DNA of 64,000 nucleotides from contig JAOUHJ010000002.1 of the NCBI GenBank assembly GCA_029865225.1, positions 1-64,000 on the forward strand. Direction: 5' to 3'. The stretch comes from Nitrospira sp. (lineage in GTDB: Bacteria > Nitrospirota > Nitrospiria > Nitrospirales > Nitrospiraceae). Position numbers and translations under genes: made by a program. The notes beneath the pieces were generated by a model. That model made no database searches. It was not told the origin of the DNA and saw only the letters and a program-made list of their open reading frames with translations. Shown one piece after another: positions 5,722 to 11,878 of this stretch. Each line of letters starts with the position of its first letter. Positions within the stretch are counted from its first letter, which is position 1.

Positions 5722-7704
5722 CTAGGCCTTGATGATGCTGGGTGTGAGGAAGATCAGCAATTCTTGTTTGCCGACCGATTCGGACTTGTTCTTGAACAAC
5801 CACCCAAGGACAGGCATGCGAGAAAGATAGGGAACACCTTGCACATTGTTGGACTGTGTATCGACGAAGACGCCTCCGATCACCATGGTTTCCCCATCTC
5901 TCACGATGACTTGTGTCGTCGCCTCTCGCCGATCGATGCTAGGACCAGCCGGGTTACTCCGTGCACCGACGGCATTACGCGTGGCCCGAACCTTCATCAA
6001 GATTCTCTTATACTCTTCGTTGGGATCACGCGAGGTAATCTGCGGCGTGACATTCAACTCCAAGTTGGCATCGACAAATGTTGTTTGTGTCCCCTGTAAC
6101 GATGTCGTTTGAAATGGAATTGACTCGCCTTGGGAAATCTTGGCCTCCCGCTTGTCCAGCGTGGTGATCTTGGGTGCTGCAATCACCTTGGTTAAGCCAA
6201 GCAATTCTCCGGCTGATAGGCGCATATCCAAACCAAATCCATCGGCTAGCTTTCCAAAGGTCCACCCAATACCAGGAACAGCCGGGAGCCCGCCGACTTG
6301 GGCTGGTAAATTGACTAGGAAGGTTCTCTCGATCGTGTCACTACCTGTCCCGGCTGCCTGCGCAAATGCACCGGTAGGGTTTCCAACCAAATGGAAGCCG
6401 CTCGGACTAAACTGCGAGGTCTTAAACCCCCACTGAATCCCCATTCCTCTAGCATAAACCGTATCAGCCTGTACAATACGCGCTTCAATTTGCACCTGAG
6501 GAACCTCCAGATCAAGCCCTTCGACAAGTTGCTTAATGACCGCCAGTTTTGACTCCGTGTCCTGCACGACCAATGCGTTACTCCCATTATTGAATTGCAT
6601 ACGGCCGCGTGGACTCAAGTTCTGCCTGAGCGATTGCATGAGCTCCTGCGCCGGAATATGTCTGATATAGAAGACACGGTCGATCACCGGTTCTGCCTTC
6701 GTCTTAGAATCTCTGGCTCGTGCTTCTTCATCCTGTTGTTTGGAAAGATTCGCTAAGGAGTCGACCCAGACGATGCTTCCTTGACGAAACATGCCGAGGC
6801 CGTTCATCTTCAAGAGCATGTCCAACGCTTGATCCCAAGGCACATTCACCATCTTCATCGTCACCTTCGACTTGACACCTTCTCCGACAACGATGTTGAA
6901 ACCACTGACCTCGGCAATCAATCTGAGAATATTGGTGATATCCGCCTGCTGAAAGTCGAGAGAGATCCGTCGACCGACAAATCTGGTTTTCCCTATCACG
7001 AGATCGTCGGATCGTTCATCCTTCTCAACTGACGCGTTGTCGTCCGTCATCTGAGCACGCTGTATCTTGAATTGAGGCTGCGTGGGTCTAACAATTCGTG
7101 TTGCTTTTCTTACGACTTGGTCCTTCGCTTGAACCATCGGTTTTTTTGAGCGAGGGAGAATGGACACACTCTCCTGGGTATGGATCTTGGTCGCCACCGC
7201 AGGGAGAGCCATGGCCTCACTCGGTTTCAGTGTAATCACCACCTTGTTGGCGTCACGAACCATCGAATAGAGTGGCCGTTCAGGGACATCGAATACCAGC
7301 CTGACCTTATCAGCATGATGCCCCACCCTAATCTTCTTGAGCAGATAATGGTCGGCTCGGATCACGGACCGCCTGAGGGTAGATGACACAGCTGGAATAT
7401 CGACAATCAAGCGAGAGTCATCCAAAAAGTTTGTCTCGGGGAATAGTTGCCCGTCACCAGCGATCACCACTGTTACCACATCTACCTCGGGACGAACCTC
7501 AATTGCCGTCACCGCTTGAGCGAGCAATCGCATAGAAGGCGTTCCGGCACGTTCGATGCCTGCCTGCTTCATCACCTGGTCGGTCTCATTGGCAAGAGCC
7601 CTCGTCTCCGCACTCACAAGGAGAGCGAGAAATACGAGTACCCAGGCTCCGATGAAGCATCTAGCTATCCGGAAACTACCTGCTCGAGAGATTAGTGGTT
7701 TCAT
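5722..7704 (-). CDS. pilQ: Type IV pilus secretin PilQ
   Basis: Forms the outer-membrane channel through which the type IV pilus leaves the cell. It is 660 residues: an N-terminal signal peptide (about 1-38), an AMIN domain (about 65-180) for peptidoglycan contact, a basic linker, an STN/N0 domain (about 248-315), an N1/NolW domain (about 335-420) and the C-terminal secretin domain ending in GWLFKNKSESVGKQELLIFLTP, the classic secretin end (shown here in part). Its ATG overlaps the pilP stop by 4 nt (ATGA). Last gene of the merR-like-pilMNOPQ operon. Confidence 0.94.
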   Translation of the reverse strand: MKPLISRAGSFRIARCFIGAWVLVFLALLVSAETRALANETDQVMKQAGIERAGTPSMRLLAQAVTAIEVRPEVDVVTVVIAGDGQLFPETNFLDDSRLIVDIPAVSSTLRRSVIRADHYLLKKIRVGHHADKVRLVFDVPERPLYSMVRDANKVVITLKPSEAMALPAVATKIHTQESVSILPRSKKPMVQAKDQVVRKATRIVRPTQPQFKIQRAQMTDDNASVEKDERSDDLVIGKTRFVGRRISLDFQQADITNILRLIAEVSGFNIVVGEGVKSKVTMKMVNVPWDQALDMLLKMNGLGMFRQGSIVWVDSLANLSKQQDEEARARDSKTKAEPVIDRVFYIRHIPAQELMQSLRQNLSPRGRMQFNNGSNALVVQDTESKLAVIKQLVEGLDLEVPQVQIEARIVQADTVYARGMGIQWGFKTSQFSPSGFHLVGNPTGAFAQAAGTGSDTIERTFLVNLPAQVGGLPAVPGIGWTFGKLADGFGLDMRLSAGELLGLTKVIAAPKITTLDKREAKISQGESIPFQTTSLQGTQTTFVDANLELNVTPQITSRDPNEEYKRILMKVRATRNAVGARSNPAGPSIDRREATTQVIVRDGETMVIGGVFVDTQSNNVQGVPYLSRMPVLGWLFKNKSESVGKQELLIFLTPSIIKA

Positions 7705-8327
7705 TCTGAGCCCTCTTTGGGATGAAGGAGCTTGACATACTCTCGCTCCTGCTTTTTGCCATATACGTCCGTGAATCGTTCTTGCACGATAATGCCGCGT
7801 TCAGTGATTGCGCTGACCACCCCGTTGTTCTGTCCAATTCTGGTGCCTCGACGAACGGTGTACCCATGCCCCTCAGGAGTCTGAACCATCGCGGTATACC
7901 CATACGCACCCCACACAATGGCGATCAGGTTGAGTTCGGTTAGGGTGACGCGCTGCAATGGGGGAAGTGTCATATCCACCTTTCCCGGTTGCAGTTCCTG
8001 AATGATGGGAGCAAATGGATCTCGGCGGCCTGACGGATCGTATCCAACACCCGGCACACCCTCTGTTAATGGCAACGGAGGAGCCATCGATACGTCTTCA
8101 TGCATTGATGGCGTTTCCATGCTAGGGGGTACCGCCCGAGGCGTGTCGGGGACGGAAGGGATGGGGATTGCCCCTTGCCGCATAGGCGCTATCTGTCCAG
8201 GCAGAGGAGAAGGCTCAGCGTGAACCTGTTGACTCAAGAGCGGGACAATCCATAAGCCTGCCATACCGACACCGGATAACACAAAAGAGCGCCATACCTT
8301 CCTCGCACTCCTAACCAATGGCTGCAT
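7701..8327 (-). CDS. pilP: Type IV pilus assembly lipoprotein-like PilP
   Basis: Inner-membrane-associated partner linking the PilN/PilO complex to the PilQ secretin. The 208 residues hold an N-terminal hydrophobic export segment, a proline-rich linker (about 40-95), the GRRDPFAP motif that opens the PilP beta-domain, and a homology domain with LTELNLIAIVWG and a GYTVRRGTRIG strand pair, both typical of PilP. I see no clear lipobox Cys in the signal region, so it may be anchored by the hydrophobic helix. It overlaps pilQ by 4 nt and follows pilO by 12 bp. Confidence 0.9.
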   Translation of the reverse strand: MQPLVRSARKVWRSFVLSGVGMAGLWIVPLLSQQVHAEPSPLPGQIAPMRQGAIPIPSVPDTPRAVPPSMETPSMHEDVSMAPPLPLTEGVPGVGYDPSGRRDPFAPIIQELQPGKVDMTLPPLQRVTLTELNLIAIVWGAYGYTAMVQTPEGHGYTVRRGTRIGQNNGVVSAITERGIIVQERFTDVYGKKQEREYVKLLHPKEGSE

Positions 8328-8339
8328 AGGGAGTATCCC

Positions 8340-8984
8340 TCACTTACCGGCTTGGGCAACGTTGGGAGCAGTTGCTGATGGTGGTGCCCCTGAAACCGGC
8401 TTCTCTTGGGGGGCGGCATACGCCACAAGATCAAATGTCGTTTGCGATACAATTCGCCCCTGTTCCACTTTTGGAGATCCGATCTTTAAACCTGAGACTG
8501 TAATAATACGAGGGAGCCGATTGATCCGATCAAAGAACAACGCCGCGGTGTGATACACTCCAGCCACTTCAACATTCACCGGCATTTTGACAAAAAGCTT
8601 CGACGCATCTTCGGTCGGTGCCCCCGGCTTCCATAGCTTGATATCCAGCCCTAACCGCACGCCGAGATCAGAGACCTGTTTCAGCAGCATGATGGCCTCT
8701 TCTTCCGGCGGAAGTCGTTCCTTCTTTTTGGCCAGCTCAATTTCGAGCTGTTTGTTGGCGGCGACCAATTCATCAAGGTGCTTTACTTTGATCGTCAGTG
8801 TTTGAATCTCGCTCTCTAGCTTGCTATTCTCGGCCTCCAAGACGGCGATGATCTCAGACTTGGGCTCGGCGATGTAAAAGTAAAAACCTGCGATAATGCC
8901 ACCGACGAGAAGGAATAAAAGCGCGGCCTTTTGGGTAGCCGGCACGTTGCGAAGCGCATCCAGGTTTACTTGTGGCAACGTCAT
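8340..8984 (-). CDS. pilO: Type IV pilus inner-membrane protein PilO
   Basis: A bitopic membrane protein that pairs with PilN to form the inner-membrane alignment platform. The 214 residues show one membrane helix (about 21-40), a long charged coiled coil (about 50-95) and a periplasmic ferredoxin-like domain with the VEVAGVYHTAALFFDRINRL segment expected in PilO. The C-terminal tail is rich in Pro and Ala. It starts 2 nt after the pilN stop codon. Confidence 0.9.
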   Translation of the reverse strand: MTLPQVNLDALRNVPATQKAALLFLLVGGIIAGFYFYIAEPKSEIIAVLEAENSKLESEIQTLTIKVKHLDELVAANKQLEIELAKKKERLPPEEEAIMLLKQVSDLGVRLGLDIKLWKPGAPTEDASKLFVKMPVNVEVAGVYHTAALFFDRINRLPRIITVSGLKIGSPKVEQGRIVSQTTFDLVAYAAPQEKPVSGAPPSATAPNVAQAGK

Positions 8985-8986
8985 TA

Positions 8987-9541
8987 TTACCCTTTCAATC
9001 GGAAGGCTAAACGGAACTGATACAGAGTGAGCTTGTTCTCGACCGTGGCTTTACTTTCCTGCAGATTGATACCGGTAAAATAATCGGTACGACGCAAATT
9101 ATTGACAAATTCGACCACATCGTCGTTCGTGAGCGCCTTCCCTTCCAGCTCAACCGTATCGGAGGCCACACCCAGCCGCGTGAGCCATACTTTAAGCGGC
9201 TCCAAGCTCTGACTCACGTGGTCAAGAACTTTCACAGGCCCCATCCGTGATTGCTCGAGCTGATCAATAATACGATTCTTATCTTCCAGCAGCTTTTTCC
9301 GTTGCTCGAAGTCCTGGACCTGCTTCACCTGCTCCTTCAGCTGAGCAACTTGCCTTTCCTTATCCTGTTTTTCGACTTGCTGAGCTTCAAGTTCGTCGTC
9401 CAAGGAAGAGGAATACCACCAACAGCCGGCCAACGTGATCAGGATGACCCCCACCCCGAGCAAGGCTTGTGCACGGACATCATACTGCGGCTTTGCTGGT
9501 CGCCCCTTTGGTCCGCCAGGAAGTAGGTTGATTCGAATCAT
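8987..9541 (-). CDS. pilN: Type IV pilus inner-membrane protein PilN
   Basis: Bitopic partner of PilO; its short cytoplasmic N-terminus (MIRINLLPG) is the known docking peptide for PilM and is intact here. The 184 residues continue with a membrane helix (about 28-47), a coiled coil (about 50-95) and a periplasmic domain. The start codon overlaps the pilM stop by 4 nt, which fits translational coupling of the two binding partners. Confidence 0.92.
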   Translation of the reverse strand: MIRINLLPGGPKGRPAKPQYDVRAQALLGVGVILITLAGCWWYSSSLDDELEAQQVEKQDKERQVAQLKEQVKQVQDFEQRKKLLEDKNRIIDQLEQSRMGPVKVLDHVSQSLEPLKVWLTRLGVASDTVELEGKALTNDDVVEFVNNLRRTDYFTGINLQESKATVENKLTLYQFRLAFRLKG

Positions 9542-10644
9542 CTGTCACCCACGGCTCGTAGTGCCAGCCCAACGCCAACCGCCGCAGAGGGAGCCATATC
9601 GGCTAGGAGCTCCGGATCGGCATCACACCCTGAGATATCGATTTCTGCAAAAGGGTCCGCCAGTTCCACGGGAAGCTGCATCCGATCGCCAAGTTGCTGA
9701 ATCAAACCATTGGCTCTGGCCACACCGCCGCACAGCAGAACACGATTGAGTTCGGAATTGGTGGTTGAATTCTTAAAGTAGTCCACTGTCCTGGCAATTT
9801 CTGACGCGACTTCTGCATTCACACTATCGATAACGTTGCCTACCGCAACGCCCCCTGAATCACCAGCGCGGTCCTTTTTCTTACTCTCTTCCGCTTCCTC
9901 GAATGACAGTCCGATCTCGCGTTGGATCGCCTCTGTATAGCGATTCCCACCTAAAGGAATATCGCGAGTAAACAGGGACGCCCCCGCGCGGATGATATTG
10001 ACATTCATCACGCTGGCTCCAAGATTCACCAGCGCGGTCGTTTCTTCTTGTGCCATTGGATAGTTGATCGCATGCATATTTTCGATGGCAAAGGCATCAA
10101 CATCCATGACCATTGGAATCAACCCCGCTGCCTTGACCAATTCCGTCAATTCATTGATCTTGTCCTTCTTCGCAGCCACGAGGATGACCGCCATGTCGCC
10201 CTGCCCTTCGTTCATCTCGTCGGGAGGCAATACGTGGAAGTCAATGTTGACTTCGTTGATATCAAAGGGAATATACTGCTCTGCAGCCAGCTTTACTTGG
10301 CCTTCCAATTCCTCATCCGGCATAGGGGGCAAACTAATCTTCTTGACGATTACGGCATGCCCTGAGATTGAGATGGCCACATGCTTGTTCTTGATGTTCG
10401 CTTCATCGAAAAGTTCTCTGATAGCCGCAACCACGCGGCCCTCATCCATGACAGTGCCGTCGACAATCACTTCCGGCTCAAGGAGTTTCACCCCAAACTT
10501 TTGCAGAAGGTACCGCCCCTTCGTTTCCTTCAGTTGGGCTGCCTTGATCGCGCTCGACCCAATATCCAGCCCAACGAGCTGACGGCGAGGCGTCAACATT
10601 GAAATAATATCGGTTTCAACGAGTTTTTTAAGTGAACCCATCAT
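9538..10644 (-). CDS. pilM: Type IV pilus assembly ATPase-fold protein PilM
   Basis: An actin/FtsA-fold cytoplasmic protein that binds the N-terminus of PilN and helps assemble the pilus machine. The 368 residues include the phosphate-1 motif VGLDIGSSAIKAA (about 24-36), the LPPMPDEELEGQVKLAAEQYIPF region that is highly typical of PilM, and the LLCGGVARANGL adenosine motif near residue 310. It follows the MerR-like gene by 18 bp, so the two are likely co-transcribed. Confidence 0.94.
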   Translation of the reverse strand: MMGSLKKLVETDIISMLTPRRQLVGLDIGSSAIKAAQLKETKGRYLLQKFGVKLLEPEVIVDGTVMDEGRVVAAIRELFDEANIKNKHVAISISGHAVIVKKISLPPMPDEELEGQVKLAAEQYIPFDINEVNIDFHVLPPDEMNEGQGDMAVILVAAKKDKINELTELVKAAGLIPMVMDVDAFAIENMHAINYPMAQEETTALVNLGASVMNVNIIRAGASLFTRDIPLGGNRYTEAIQREIGLSFEEAEESKKKDRAGDSGGVAVGNVIDSVNAEVASEIARTVDYFKNSTTNSELNRVLLCGGVARANGLIQQLGDRMQLPVELADPFAEIDISGCDADPELLADMAPSAAVGVGLALRAVGDR

Positions 10645-10662: not shown

Positions 10663-10875
10663 CTACGCCACGGCTTTGCGGGCACGAATGACTTTTTCGA
10701 TTTCATCCACATTCTTTCTCGTGTAAAGGCGCCAGTTTCTCCAGTCACGACCCGGCTGTGTAATCACTCCCTCTCGCTCCCATCGAAAGAGTGTAGCCTT
10801 AGAAATATCGAACAAGTCGCATATTTCATAAGCCTTAAACCCTTCCTGCTTCGGTACGTTTCTAGGCTTTTTCAC
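10663..10875 (-). CDS. Small MerR-like DNA-binding protein heading the pil operon
   Basis: A 70-residue protein consisting almost only of a winged-helix of MerR type: YEICDLFDISKATLFRWERE is the helix-turn-helix and the following GRDWRNWRLYTRKNVDEIEK is the wing and helix 3. There is no sensor or dimerisation domain. The start is a GTG at 10875; I see no good ribosome-binding site before it, and a stop codon lies in frame just upstream. Being first in the pilMNOPQ operon, it is likely to regulate this operon, probably including itself through the repeats at its promoter. Function is inferred from fold and position. Confidence 0.75.
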   Translation of the reverse strand: MKKPRNVPKQEGFKAYEICDLFDISKATLFRWEREGVITQPGRDWRNWRLYTRKNVDEIEKVIRARKAVA

Positions 10876-10881
10876 TTGCGT

Positions 10882-10928
10882 AGTATTATCTTAGTATAAG
10901 GCTATTGATATTCACAAAATTAAGTATA
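10882..10928 (-). repeat. Phased AGTATA-type repeats at the pil operon promoter
   Basis: On the plus strand AGTATT (10882), AGTATA (10893) and AGTATA (10923) recur in an AT-rich stretch. The spacings are 11 and 30 bp, close to whole helical turns. The last copy is the -10 element of the promoter and the first lies 7 bp from the GTG start of the MerR-like gene. This could be an operator array for that protein; it could also be chance in AT-rich DNA. Confidence 0.35.
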
Positions 10929-10950
10929 GTCAATATGTTCTACCTGTCAA
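10923..10950 (-). promoter_or_regulatory. Sigma70-type promoter of the merR-like-pilMNOPQ operon
   Basis: On the minus strand, a perfect -35 TTGACA is followed after 16 bases by TATACT. The predicted transcript would begin about 40 nt before the GTG start of the MerR-like gene. The region is clearly more AT-rich than the genes around it. Confidence 0.65.
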
Positions 10951-11011: not shown

Positions 11012-11878
11012 CTAGGTTTTATCGATGTCTCGGTGCTTGAGCCCAACTTTGTATCCCAAAGTCCCGAGGCTTTCGCAGAGATGGCTGGCAATGGCTACAG
11101 ACCGGTGGCGCCCTCCGGTACATCCAATGGCAATGGTCAGATAACTGCGCCGCTCCCTTTGAAACAGAGGTAGAAGGAACTTTAGTAGATTATCGACGTG
11201 GTCGACAAAGGCGGTGGCTTCTGGGTCCGTCAACACGAAGTGACGAACCCGTGGGTCGGTCCCTGGAAGTGGCTTTAGGTCTGGCACAAAGAAGGGGTTC
11301 TTCAGAAATCGCACATCGAACAGGAGATCAATATCATAGGGCACTCCAAATTTATATCCGAAGGTTAAAAATGAAATGGTCAGTCGTCGTTCAGATGATT
11401 CTCGTAGAAACTCCTTGGCTAACAGCTCCCCAAGTTCATGAACTGTAAGATCTGAAGTATCGATGATTCGATCTGCACGTCGCCGAAGTTCCGTCAAGCG
11501 CTCTTTTTCGAATCGGATCCCTTCCAGGACTGGTAGATGCGGCAAAAGCGGGTGTGGGCGTCTTGATTCTGAAAAGCGCCTGATCAGGACCTCCTCACGC
11601 GCCTCAAGGAATAACAATTTGACCGAATGGCCCATCGCTTTGACTCGTTCCAGAATGCCAACAAGATCCGAGAAAAACACACGTTCGCGCACATCGATAC
11701 CTAGCGCAACATTGGCTATTTCATCATGTTGTTGGTCACACAGCTCTACAAAGGTTGGAAGTAAAGCGGGAGGAAGGTTATCAATGCAGAAATAGCCGGC
11801 ATCCTCGAACGCCTTGAGCGCGTAGGATTTTCCTGATCCAGATAACCCGCTGATGATCACGAGGTTGAGTCGTGCCAT
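11012..11878 (-). CDS. rapZ: RNase adapter / nucleotide-binding protein RapZ (YvcJ family)
   Basis: A 288-residue protein with an N-terminal P-loop (GLSGSGKS, residues 11-18) and a C-terminal domain ending in IAIGCTGGRHRSVAIA, the conserved signature of the family. In Escherichia coli RapZ binds small RNAs and guides RNase E in control of glucosamine-6-phosphate synthase; in other bacteria its role is less clear. It is the last gene of the lptCAB-rpoN-hpf cluster, 204 bp after hpf. The usual neighbour ptsN is absent here. Confidence 0.93.
   Translation of the reverse strand: MARLNLVIISGLSGSGKSYALKAFEDAGYFCIDNLPPALLPTFVELCDQQHDEIANVALGIDVRERVFFSDLVGILERVKAMGHSVKLLFLEAREEVLIRRFSESRRPHPLLPHLPVLEGIRFEKERLTELRRRADRIIDTSDLTVHELGELLAKEFLRESSERRLTISFLTFGYKFGVPYDIDLLFDVRFLKNPFFVPDLKPLPGTDPRVRHFVLTDPEATAFVDHVDNLLKFLLPLFQRERRSYLTIAIGCTGGRHRSVAIASHLCESLGTLGYKVGLKHRDIDKT

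Follow-up and report, generated by a model that had tools for sequence, protein, structure and literature searches.

BldC of Streptomyces (PDB 6AMA and 6AMK) is a MerR-type protein in which, according to its description (PMC5859096), each protomer binds a 9-bp direct repeat and the interface is formed on F21, W31 and L43. The same text describes BldC, a pleiotropic regulator with many targets, as a repressor that sustains vegetative growth, and reports that the G44E substitution abolishes its binding. It also names GlnR and TnrA as MerR-like winged helices that lack a coiled coil. The classical regulators CadR, CueR, MerR and SoxR carry a dimerisation helix and an effector domain in addition to the winged helix. 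Promoters controlled by MerR-type activators have a spacer of 19-20 bp with a dyad operator. Here, we compare these systems with a locus of Nitrospira in which a one-domain MerR-type gene directly precedes the pilus genes pilMNOPQ.

A one-domain MerR-type gene in front of pilM

The DNA analysed, a 64,000-nucleotide stretch from Nitrospira sp. that we call the window, contains on its minus strand a gene of 70 codons with a GTG start (10663..10875). It is preceded by rapZ (11012..11878, minus strand; NCBIfam RapZ 344 bits, cut-off 244) and a 136-bp intergenic region in which the promoter sits, and is followed after 18 bp by the first pilus gene, pilM (9538..10644, ATG at 10644; PilM_2, 1.2e-78). 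The genes pilN (8987..9541; PilN, 1.3e-14), pilO (8340..8984; PilO, 1.8e-21), pilP (7701..8327; PilP, 4.7e-11) and pilQ, encoding the secretin (5722..7704; Secretin, 1.1e-42), follow on the same strand. An earlier note on this DNA had described a small winged-helix protein without a sensor domain 18 bp before pilM, and our results agree. The 70-residue product scored above the curated Pfam cut-offs for MerR_1 (32.5 bits, cut-off 21.6, E 9.3e-08) and MerR (30.2 bits, cut-off 28.2), which places it among the winged helices of the MerR superfamily, while four other Pfam families scored below their own cut-offs. AlphaFold2 modelled a winged helix with confidence: the mean pLDDT is 82.8, and residues 1-9 fall below 50. 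The model has helices at residues 15-22, 26-35 and 53-69, terminates with the last of these and contains neither a coiled coil nor a sensor domain. The gene is under purifying selection, with a median dN/dS of 0.054 over a 50-codon core; 53 sequences were compared, and the median is taken over the 416 pairs whose dS lay between 0.05 and 1.5.

The top fold matches were the classical regulators CadR (Z 9.5, rmsd 1.6, 58 residues aligned) and CueR, and the candidate site of the Nitrospira protein, like theirs, overlaps the promoter spacer. However, the protein has neither the dimerisation helix nor the effector domain of the classical regulators and was not assigned to them; its promoter has a spacer of 16 bp in the window and in every genus-level locus, and its direct repeats outscore the inverted ones. 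HiNmlR (PDB 5D8C, 5D90 and 5E01) likewise has a MerR fold without a sensor domain (5d90_C: Z 8.6, rmsd 2.0, 60 aligned), but its chains have 125-132 residues rather than 70 and, judging by the title of 5E01, it binds a palindromic promoter. With GlnR and TnrA the regulator shares a MerR-like winged helix free of a coiled coil (PMC5859096).

The likeness to BldC extends to the DNA. Both proteins are single MerR-type winged helices of 68-70 residues without a coiled coil or effector domain, and both go with 9-bp direct repeats of variable number that have an AT-rich 4-bp core, for BldC as given in PMC5859096 and here by sequence comparison. Hydrophobic residues also stand at BldC positions 21, 31 and 43. 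The aligned residues are F/Y22, W32 and W45, and among 122 distinct segments (from 197 records) they are F in 115 or Y in 7, W in 122 and W in 122, respectively; the equivalent of BldC Arg30, residue 31, is kept in 121 of the 122 (lysine in L200). This residue alignment comes from hhalign, which compared the regulator and BldC with an E-value of 1.7e-4 and a probability of only 49.

In contrast, the R22-E16 pair and G44 of BldC are absent from the regulator, which has D23 and R46 in 122 of 122 segments. As G44E abolishes BldC binding and the regulator has R46, its interface must differ from that of BldC. The wing reads RDWRnWRLY instead of RTLGGHRRY, with W48 for H46. Similarly, the repeat consensus is TATAnTWAS instead of AATTnnnnC, and there is approximately one site per genome instead of many targets. 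The NCBIfam BldC model NF033787 gave 13 bits, far below the cut-off of 77 for the subfamily. The BldC chain 6ama_Y reached a TM-score of 0.68 by target length at a Foldseek E-value of 6.6e-03, in a search in which no match to the regulator reached E 0.001, and BldC was found neither among the PDB profile-search matches at E <= 0.01 nor in the VIA-align top 50. By the evidence at hand, it appears that the regulator works like BldC, but because the R22-E16 pair and G44 are not kept, the wing is different and the NCBIfam score is low, we do not file it as a member of the BldC subfamily.

We scanned one genome per species (84,980 species, all phyla) for relatives, a search that reaches close relatives only, and considered the best 80 of 91 loci. 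With the exception of two records titled 'uncultured Nitrosospira', these best 80 of 91 are titled Nitrospira or other Nitrospirota. The regulator gene is directly followed by pilM in 79 of the 80 (L069 ends at a contig end), and pilN, pilO and pilP are present in 77, 77 and 74, some loci being cut short. Upstream, rapZ was found in 69 of the 80, at a distance of around 1 kb or more in four of them (L108, L109, L110 and L112). Since rapZ can be distant or missing while pilM stays, the tie is to pilM. We also examined 40 regions from other genera, chosen for holding the regulator gene: in all 40, it directly precedes pilM on the same strand. Eight of these regions have a promoter that also occurs in the set of 80 loci. 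Within the genus, 64 of 79 genomes match the regulator at E <= 0.01, 58 of them strongly (E <= 2.4e-27) and six only weakly (G008, G024, G029, G030, G039 and G040). A draw of 295 Nitrospirota genomes gave 123 matches at E <= 1e-4, and 95 at E <= 3.5e-26.

Several loci depart from this layout. In L041 and L046 (JABMDK010000014.1; G025:C46), rapZ-regulator-pilM occurs twice approximately 8 kb apart with a partial second pilM match, which reflects either a recent tandem duplication or an assembly error. G030, a 99% complete genome of 2.0 Mb from the same genus, gave no PilM family match, and its regulator match is weak (E 0.004); the regulator and pilM seem to be absent together. A second PilM-family match in a longer frame, mostly of 530-550 residues, was observed in many genus genomes among the matches listed (for example, G000:C133:71688-72569) and possibly belongs to a further pilus or secretion system.

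The promoter, its leader and tandem 9-bp units

The promoter that the earlier note had read as TTGACA, 16 bases and TATACT is present on the minus strand at 10950-10923, matches the consensus at 11 of 12 positions and lies 47 bases upstream of the GTG. Its -35 element (10945..10950) is unchanged on a tree of 82 rows. No Shine-Dalgarno-like 4-mer precedes the GTG in the window, as had also been noted; such a 4-mer is present in 11 of 47 genus-level leaders. The note had further pointed to three AGTATA/T repeats at the promoter. These exist on the plus strand with the spacing claimed, 11 and 30 bp (AGTATT at 10882-10887, AGTATA at 10893-10898 and AGTATA at 10923-10928), in a window that contains AGTATW 19 times as compared to 18.4 expected. 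While the gene is conserved before pilM in relatives, the two downstream repeats are not: a second TATACT in the leader was found in 3 of 47 genus-level loci (the window, L033 and L034), and AATACT in 22 of 47. The three repeats were thus rejected as a conserved operator, and of the sites proposed for control only the AGTATA at the -10 element is conserved, as part of a 9-bp tandem that reaches upstream into the spacer. The conserved element, which the note had not named, is the spacer plus the -10, CATATTGAC-TATACTT.

We read this element as tandem 9-bp units of approximately TATAnTWAS that lie over the -10; in the window they are CATATTGAC|TATACTTAA (10920-10937, minus strand). The upstream unit, CATATTGAC (10929..10937), falls within the 16-bp spacer, and the TATACT (10923-10928) of the downstream unit, TATACTTAA (10920..10928), doubles as the -10 element. 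We examined 198 gene-bearing records whose upstream sequence was long enough; the window is one of them, and a genome may recur in the set. A TTGAC-type -35 with a TATA core was found in 197 of them (the exception is L179), and these 197 promoters collapse to 103 distinct ones. The pattern TTGACAGGT.GA.CATATTGACTATACTT is nearly invariant in the genus-level loci, whose flanks are mostly variable. Outside the genus, the corresponding place is taken by TATACTAAC|TATACTTAC, CATACTAAG|TATACTTAC or TATATTAAG|TATATTAAC|TATAGTTAA.

Distances between units were counted in 57 distinct promoters from non-genus loci (by number, L079-L112 and L178-L214). With at most one mismatch, pairs of units occurred 9 bp apart 50 times, 18 bp apart 7 times and 27 bp apart twice, whereas every other distance up to 30 bp gave 0 or 1 and shuffles gave at most 0.1. 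When two mismatches were allowed, there were 82, 35 and 15 pairs at 9, 18 and 27 bp, as compared to 3.2, 2.4 and 1.6 in shuffled sequence, and the best other distance gave 9 pairs. The match count is partly circular, because the consensus was derived from the same sequences; the strict 9-bp phase is not. A test free of any consensus gave the same phase: in each of three promoter groups (45 from the genus, 10 and 48), no direct lag scored higher than lag 9. Here, 6.27, 6.90 and 6.94 of 9 positions matched, against 4.20, 4.2 and 4.62 in shuffles, kinship being ignored in this comparison; direct lags 5, 16 and 18 were likewise elevated in the genus. In the window itself, the two units agree at just 5 of 9 positions, and the best single consensus match is an unconserved copy in the leader, TATACTAAG.

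In some families, units occupy other positions. In f16 (L190, L194, L198, L201-L203, L205 and L206), TTGACA and a TATACTTAC-like unit are 27-28 bp apart, a TATCAT-like hexamer was seen by eye at 15-16 bp, and the array reaches downstream of the probable -10. Family f14 (L189, L193, L212 and L213) has a -10-like unit at 15 bp and another unit downstream, and L197 has a pair at 15 and 24 bp. Thus, the unit can be separated from the -10 position and is more than a conserved -10 element. An in-frame TAA inside the f14 gene was dismissed as an anomaly, being the normal stop codon.

The 47-nt leader between the -10 and the GTG (10876..10922, minus strand) contains the two further AGTATA/T copies. 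The copy TATACTAAG (10890..10898, minus strand) is a perfect consensus match out of the 9-bp phase and, in the window and its two nearest relatives (L033 and L034), is possibly a lone extra site. A TGTG-like stretch lies 3' of the -10 (10911-10922 in the window) in most loci with the gene and in most without it; since it is also found in the latter, it probably marks the region where transcription starts and not an operator. Immediately before the GTG, the window (10876-10890) and many genus leaders have a GTRTAAATACT-like stretch. In one clade, this stretch reads as coding from an upstream ATG or TTG (in frames such as MGVNTE), suggesting that the start codon of the regulator drifts between clades. 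A leaderless start via TATAAAT before the GTG, taken from the GTRTAAATAC motif, was considered and not adopted, as the motif reads as coding in one clade and is absent from others. In the Nitrospira defluvii clade, a five-codon mini-ORF (ATG AAT AGC GGC GTT TGA or similar) precedes the regulator in leaders of L080-L107; read by eye, it is present in 15 of 17 loci of that clade and missing in L079 and L100. It is possible that this mini-ORF serves translational control.

The promoter after loss of the gene

Some Nitrospiraceae have lost the gene and kept pilM. We collected 11 such loci of the genus and 14 of other genera, in all of which the gene was undetectable in the whole genome, together with five pseudogenes. 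Four of the five entered the tree; the remaining one, L177, has a cut pilM and was left out for that reason. Promoters of gene-less loci were taken as the best TTGACA-N16-TATACT within 700 bp before pilM, a choice that partly builds in the constancy of the hexamers. All 30 loci that lack a working gene have an unchanged TTGACA, and 29 of them an unchanged TATACT. The 9 bases before TATACT behaved differently. In the 49 gene-bearing rows of the genus, which represent 46 genomes plus three repeats, they differed from CATATTGAC by a mean of 0.14 positions, as compared to 3.8 in the 11 genus loci that lack it and 0.2 in the five pseudogenes. The 14 loci of other genera differed by 2.9, although the genus consensus is perhaps the wrong ancestor for these. 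When matches between the two units were counted instead, a measure that is neutral to clade, none of the 53 gene-bearing rows had a degenerate upstream unit (fewer than 5 of 9 matches), whereas 24 of the 29 rows lacking a working gene did. The five rows that keep the unit are L128 and the four pseudogenes, which presumably are recent.

On the PilM tree (82 rows), changes in the upstream unit rose from 0.23 to 1.24 per site per unit of PilM branch length after loss of the gene (12 and 36 events), an approximately five-fold faster evolution. The adjacent 7 bases of the spacer went from 0.90 to 1.55, the 3 bases 3' of the -10 stayed at 1.23-1.24 with and without the gene, and the -35 and -10 hexamers were essentially fixed. 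The contrast between the upstream unit and its neighbouring bases was significant (Fisher p 0.007). A paired sign test over independent losses was not, because such losses are few: the best tree has 5 changes of gene state, at least 3 of which fall on starred branches.

A candidate autorepressor dedicated to the pilus operon

We asked how many other sites of this kind occur in the genome. The exact promoter pattern was found once per genome in 14 of 39 genomes, the other lineages having variants or lacking the gene. Near-exact sites were counted with a 17-base core. With up to two mismatches, all 15 genus genomes searched had this core at the operon, and a single additional hit appeared among them (in G005), as compared to 3 for the reversed control; in the window's own genome, a search allowing up to three mismatches returned one site besides the promoter, while the control gave 8. 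From these near-exact sites, a wider regulon was rejected for the genomes searched, and with a site found about once per genome, the regulator looks dedicated to the pilMNOPQ operon.

Our preferred reading, to which we assign a probability of about 0.62, is that the regulator is a dedicated autorepressor of its own operon with pilMNOPQ and binds direct repeats head-to-tail like BldC. The earlier note had suggested that a one-domain MerR-type protein may control the pilus operon and itself. Synteny, the conserved operator and its decay upon gene loss strongly support this suggestion; the sites that had been named for it fared worse, as described above. We infer that the regulator binds here, represses rather than activates and assembles head-to-tail. 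Monomers would bind the tandem 9-bp units cooperatively, the head-to-tail order being suggested by the combination of 9-bp direct repeats with a single winged helix and F/Y22, W32 and W45, as in BldC. The units overlap the spacer and -10 of a strong promoter of the sigma-70 type, where binding would exclude RNA polymerase. The operon would in this way set its own level, and the pilus assembly platform would be made under negative feedback. As the protein has no sensor domain, negative autoregulation is the simplest function, and any signal would have to arrive through a partner or through protein turnover.

A GlnR- or TnrA-like arrangement, in which a symmetric dimer represses from a palindrome centred on the -10 (TAAGTATACTTA), seems to us unlikely. 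Perfect palindromes do occur in some distant loci, such as CTAAGTATACTTAG in L110, and inverted 9-mers exceed shuffles at gap 0 in the third promoter group (6.60 vs 5.61) and at gap 1 in the genus (5.98 vs 5.20). However, this excess is smaller than that of direct repeats at lag 9 (6.94 vs 4.62 and 6.27 vs 4.20 in the same two groups), arrays of 3-4 in-phase units such as that of L199 do not fit a single palindrome, TAAGTATACTTA is imperfect in Nitrospira (TTGACTATACTTA), and the 70 residues hold no coiled coil. Somewhat less probable still is an activator that untwists a non-optimal promoter like MerR, CueR or SoxR. The MerR fold, the top matches to CadR and CueR and the overlap of the site with the spacer and -10 would suit it, but the 16-bp spacer falls short of the 19-20 bp of activator promoters, and loci without a working gene keep both pilM and the promoter hexamers. 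Hexamers that are near consensus and remain unchanged after gene loss make repression more likely than activation.

We give slightly less credence again to the idea that free, unassembled PilM, a cytosolic ATPase-like protein, titrates the repressor or acts with it as a co-repressor, so that transcription would be coupled to pilus assembly. This would agree with the lack of a sensor domain, with a single target that is the very operon encoding PilM, and with an adjacency to pilM that also holds in loci lacking rapZ upstream; an autoregulated operon would account for that adjacency equally well. It is quite improbable, finally, that the spacer is conserved for reasons of RNA polymerase or DNA shape and that the small protein acts elsewhere. 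The element does always lie within a promoter, and conservation of its -10 half would be expected in any case, but the spacer unit loses its constraint when the gene is lost, the f16 array lies off the canonical -10 position, and no other clear site was found in the genomes searched.

One-domain MerR-type regulators are already known, but one that is dedicated to pilMNOPQ and has a tandem array as its operator was not found in the literature searched. In the open literature searched, including PMC12542776, we found no link between a MerR-type gene and pilM and, likewise, no dedicated transcriptional control of the type IV pilus platform in Nitrospira. More tentatively, and at slightly worse than even odds, we suggest that Nitrospirota have a widespread family of such regulators that assemble head-to-tail on 9-bp arrays, differ from BldC in operator, wing and part of the interface, and have the pilus assembly operon as their one target, with arrays of 2 to approximately 4 units whose number and position relative to the -10 vary by lineage.

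The family would be a compact second case, in another phylum, of what is described for BldC, with an operator that can already be read from evolution: there are lineages with 2, 3 and approximately 4 units, lineages in which the array is shifted off the -10, and lineages in which the regulator has been lost and the promoter retained. If this reading is true, repeat number would be an evolvable dial of repression strength, and Nitrospira, a nitrifier, would have a dedicated transcriptional control for its type IV pilus platform.
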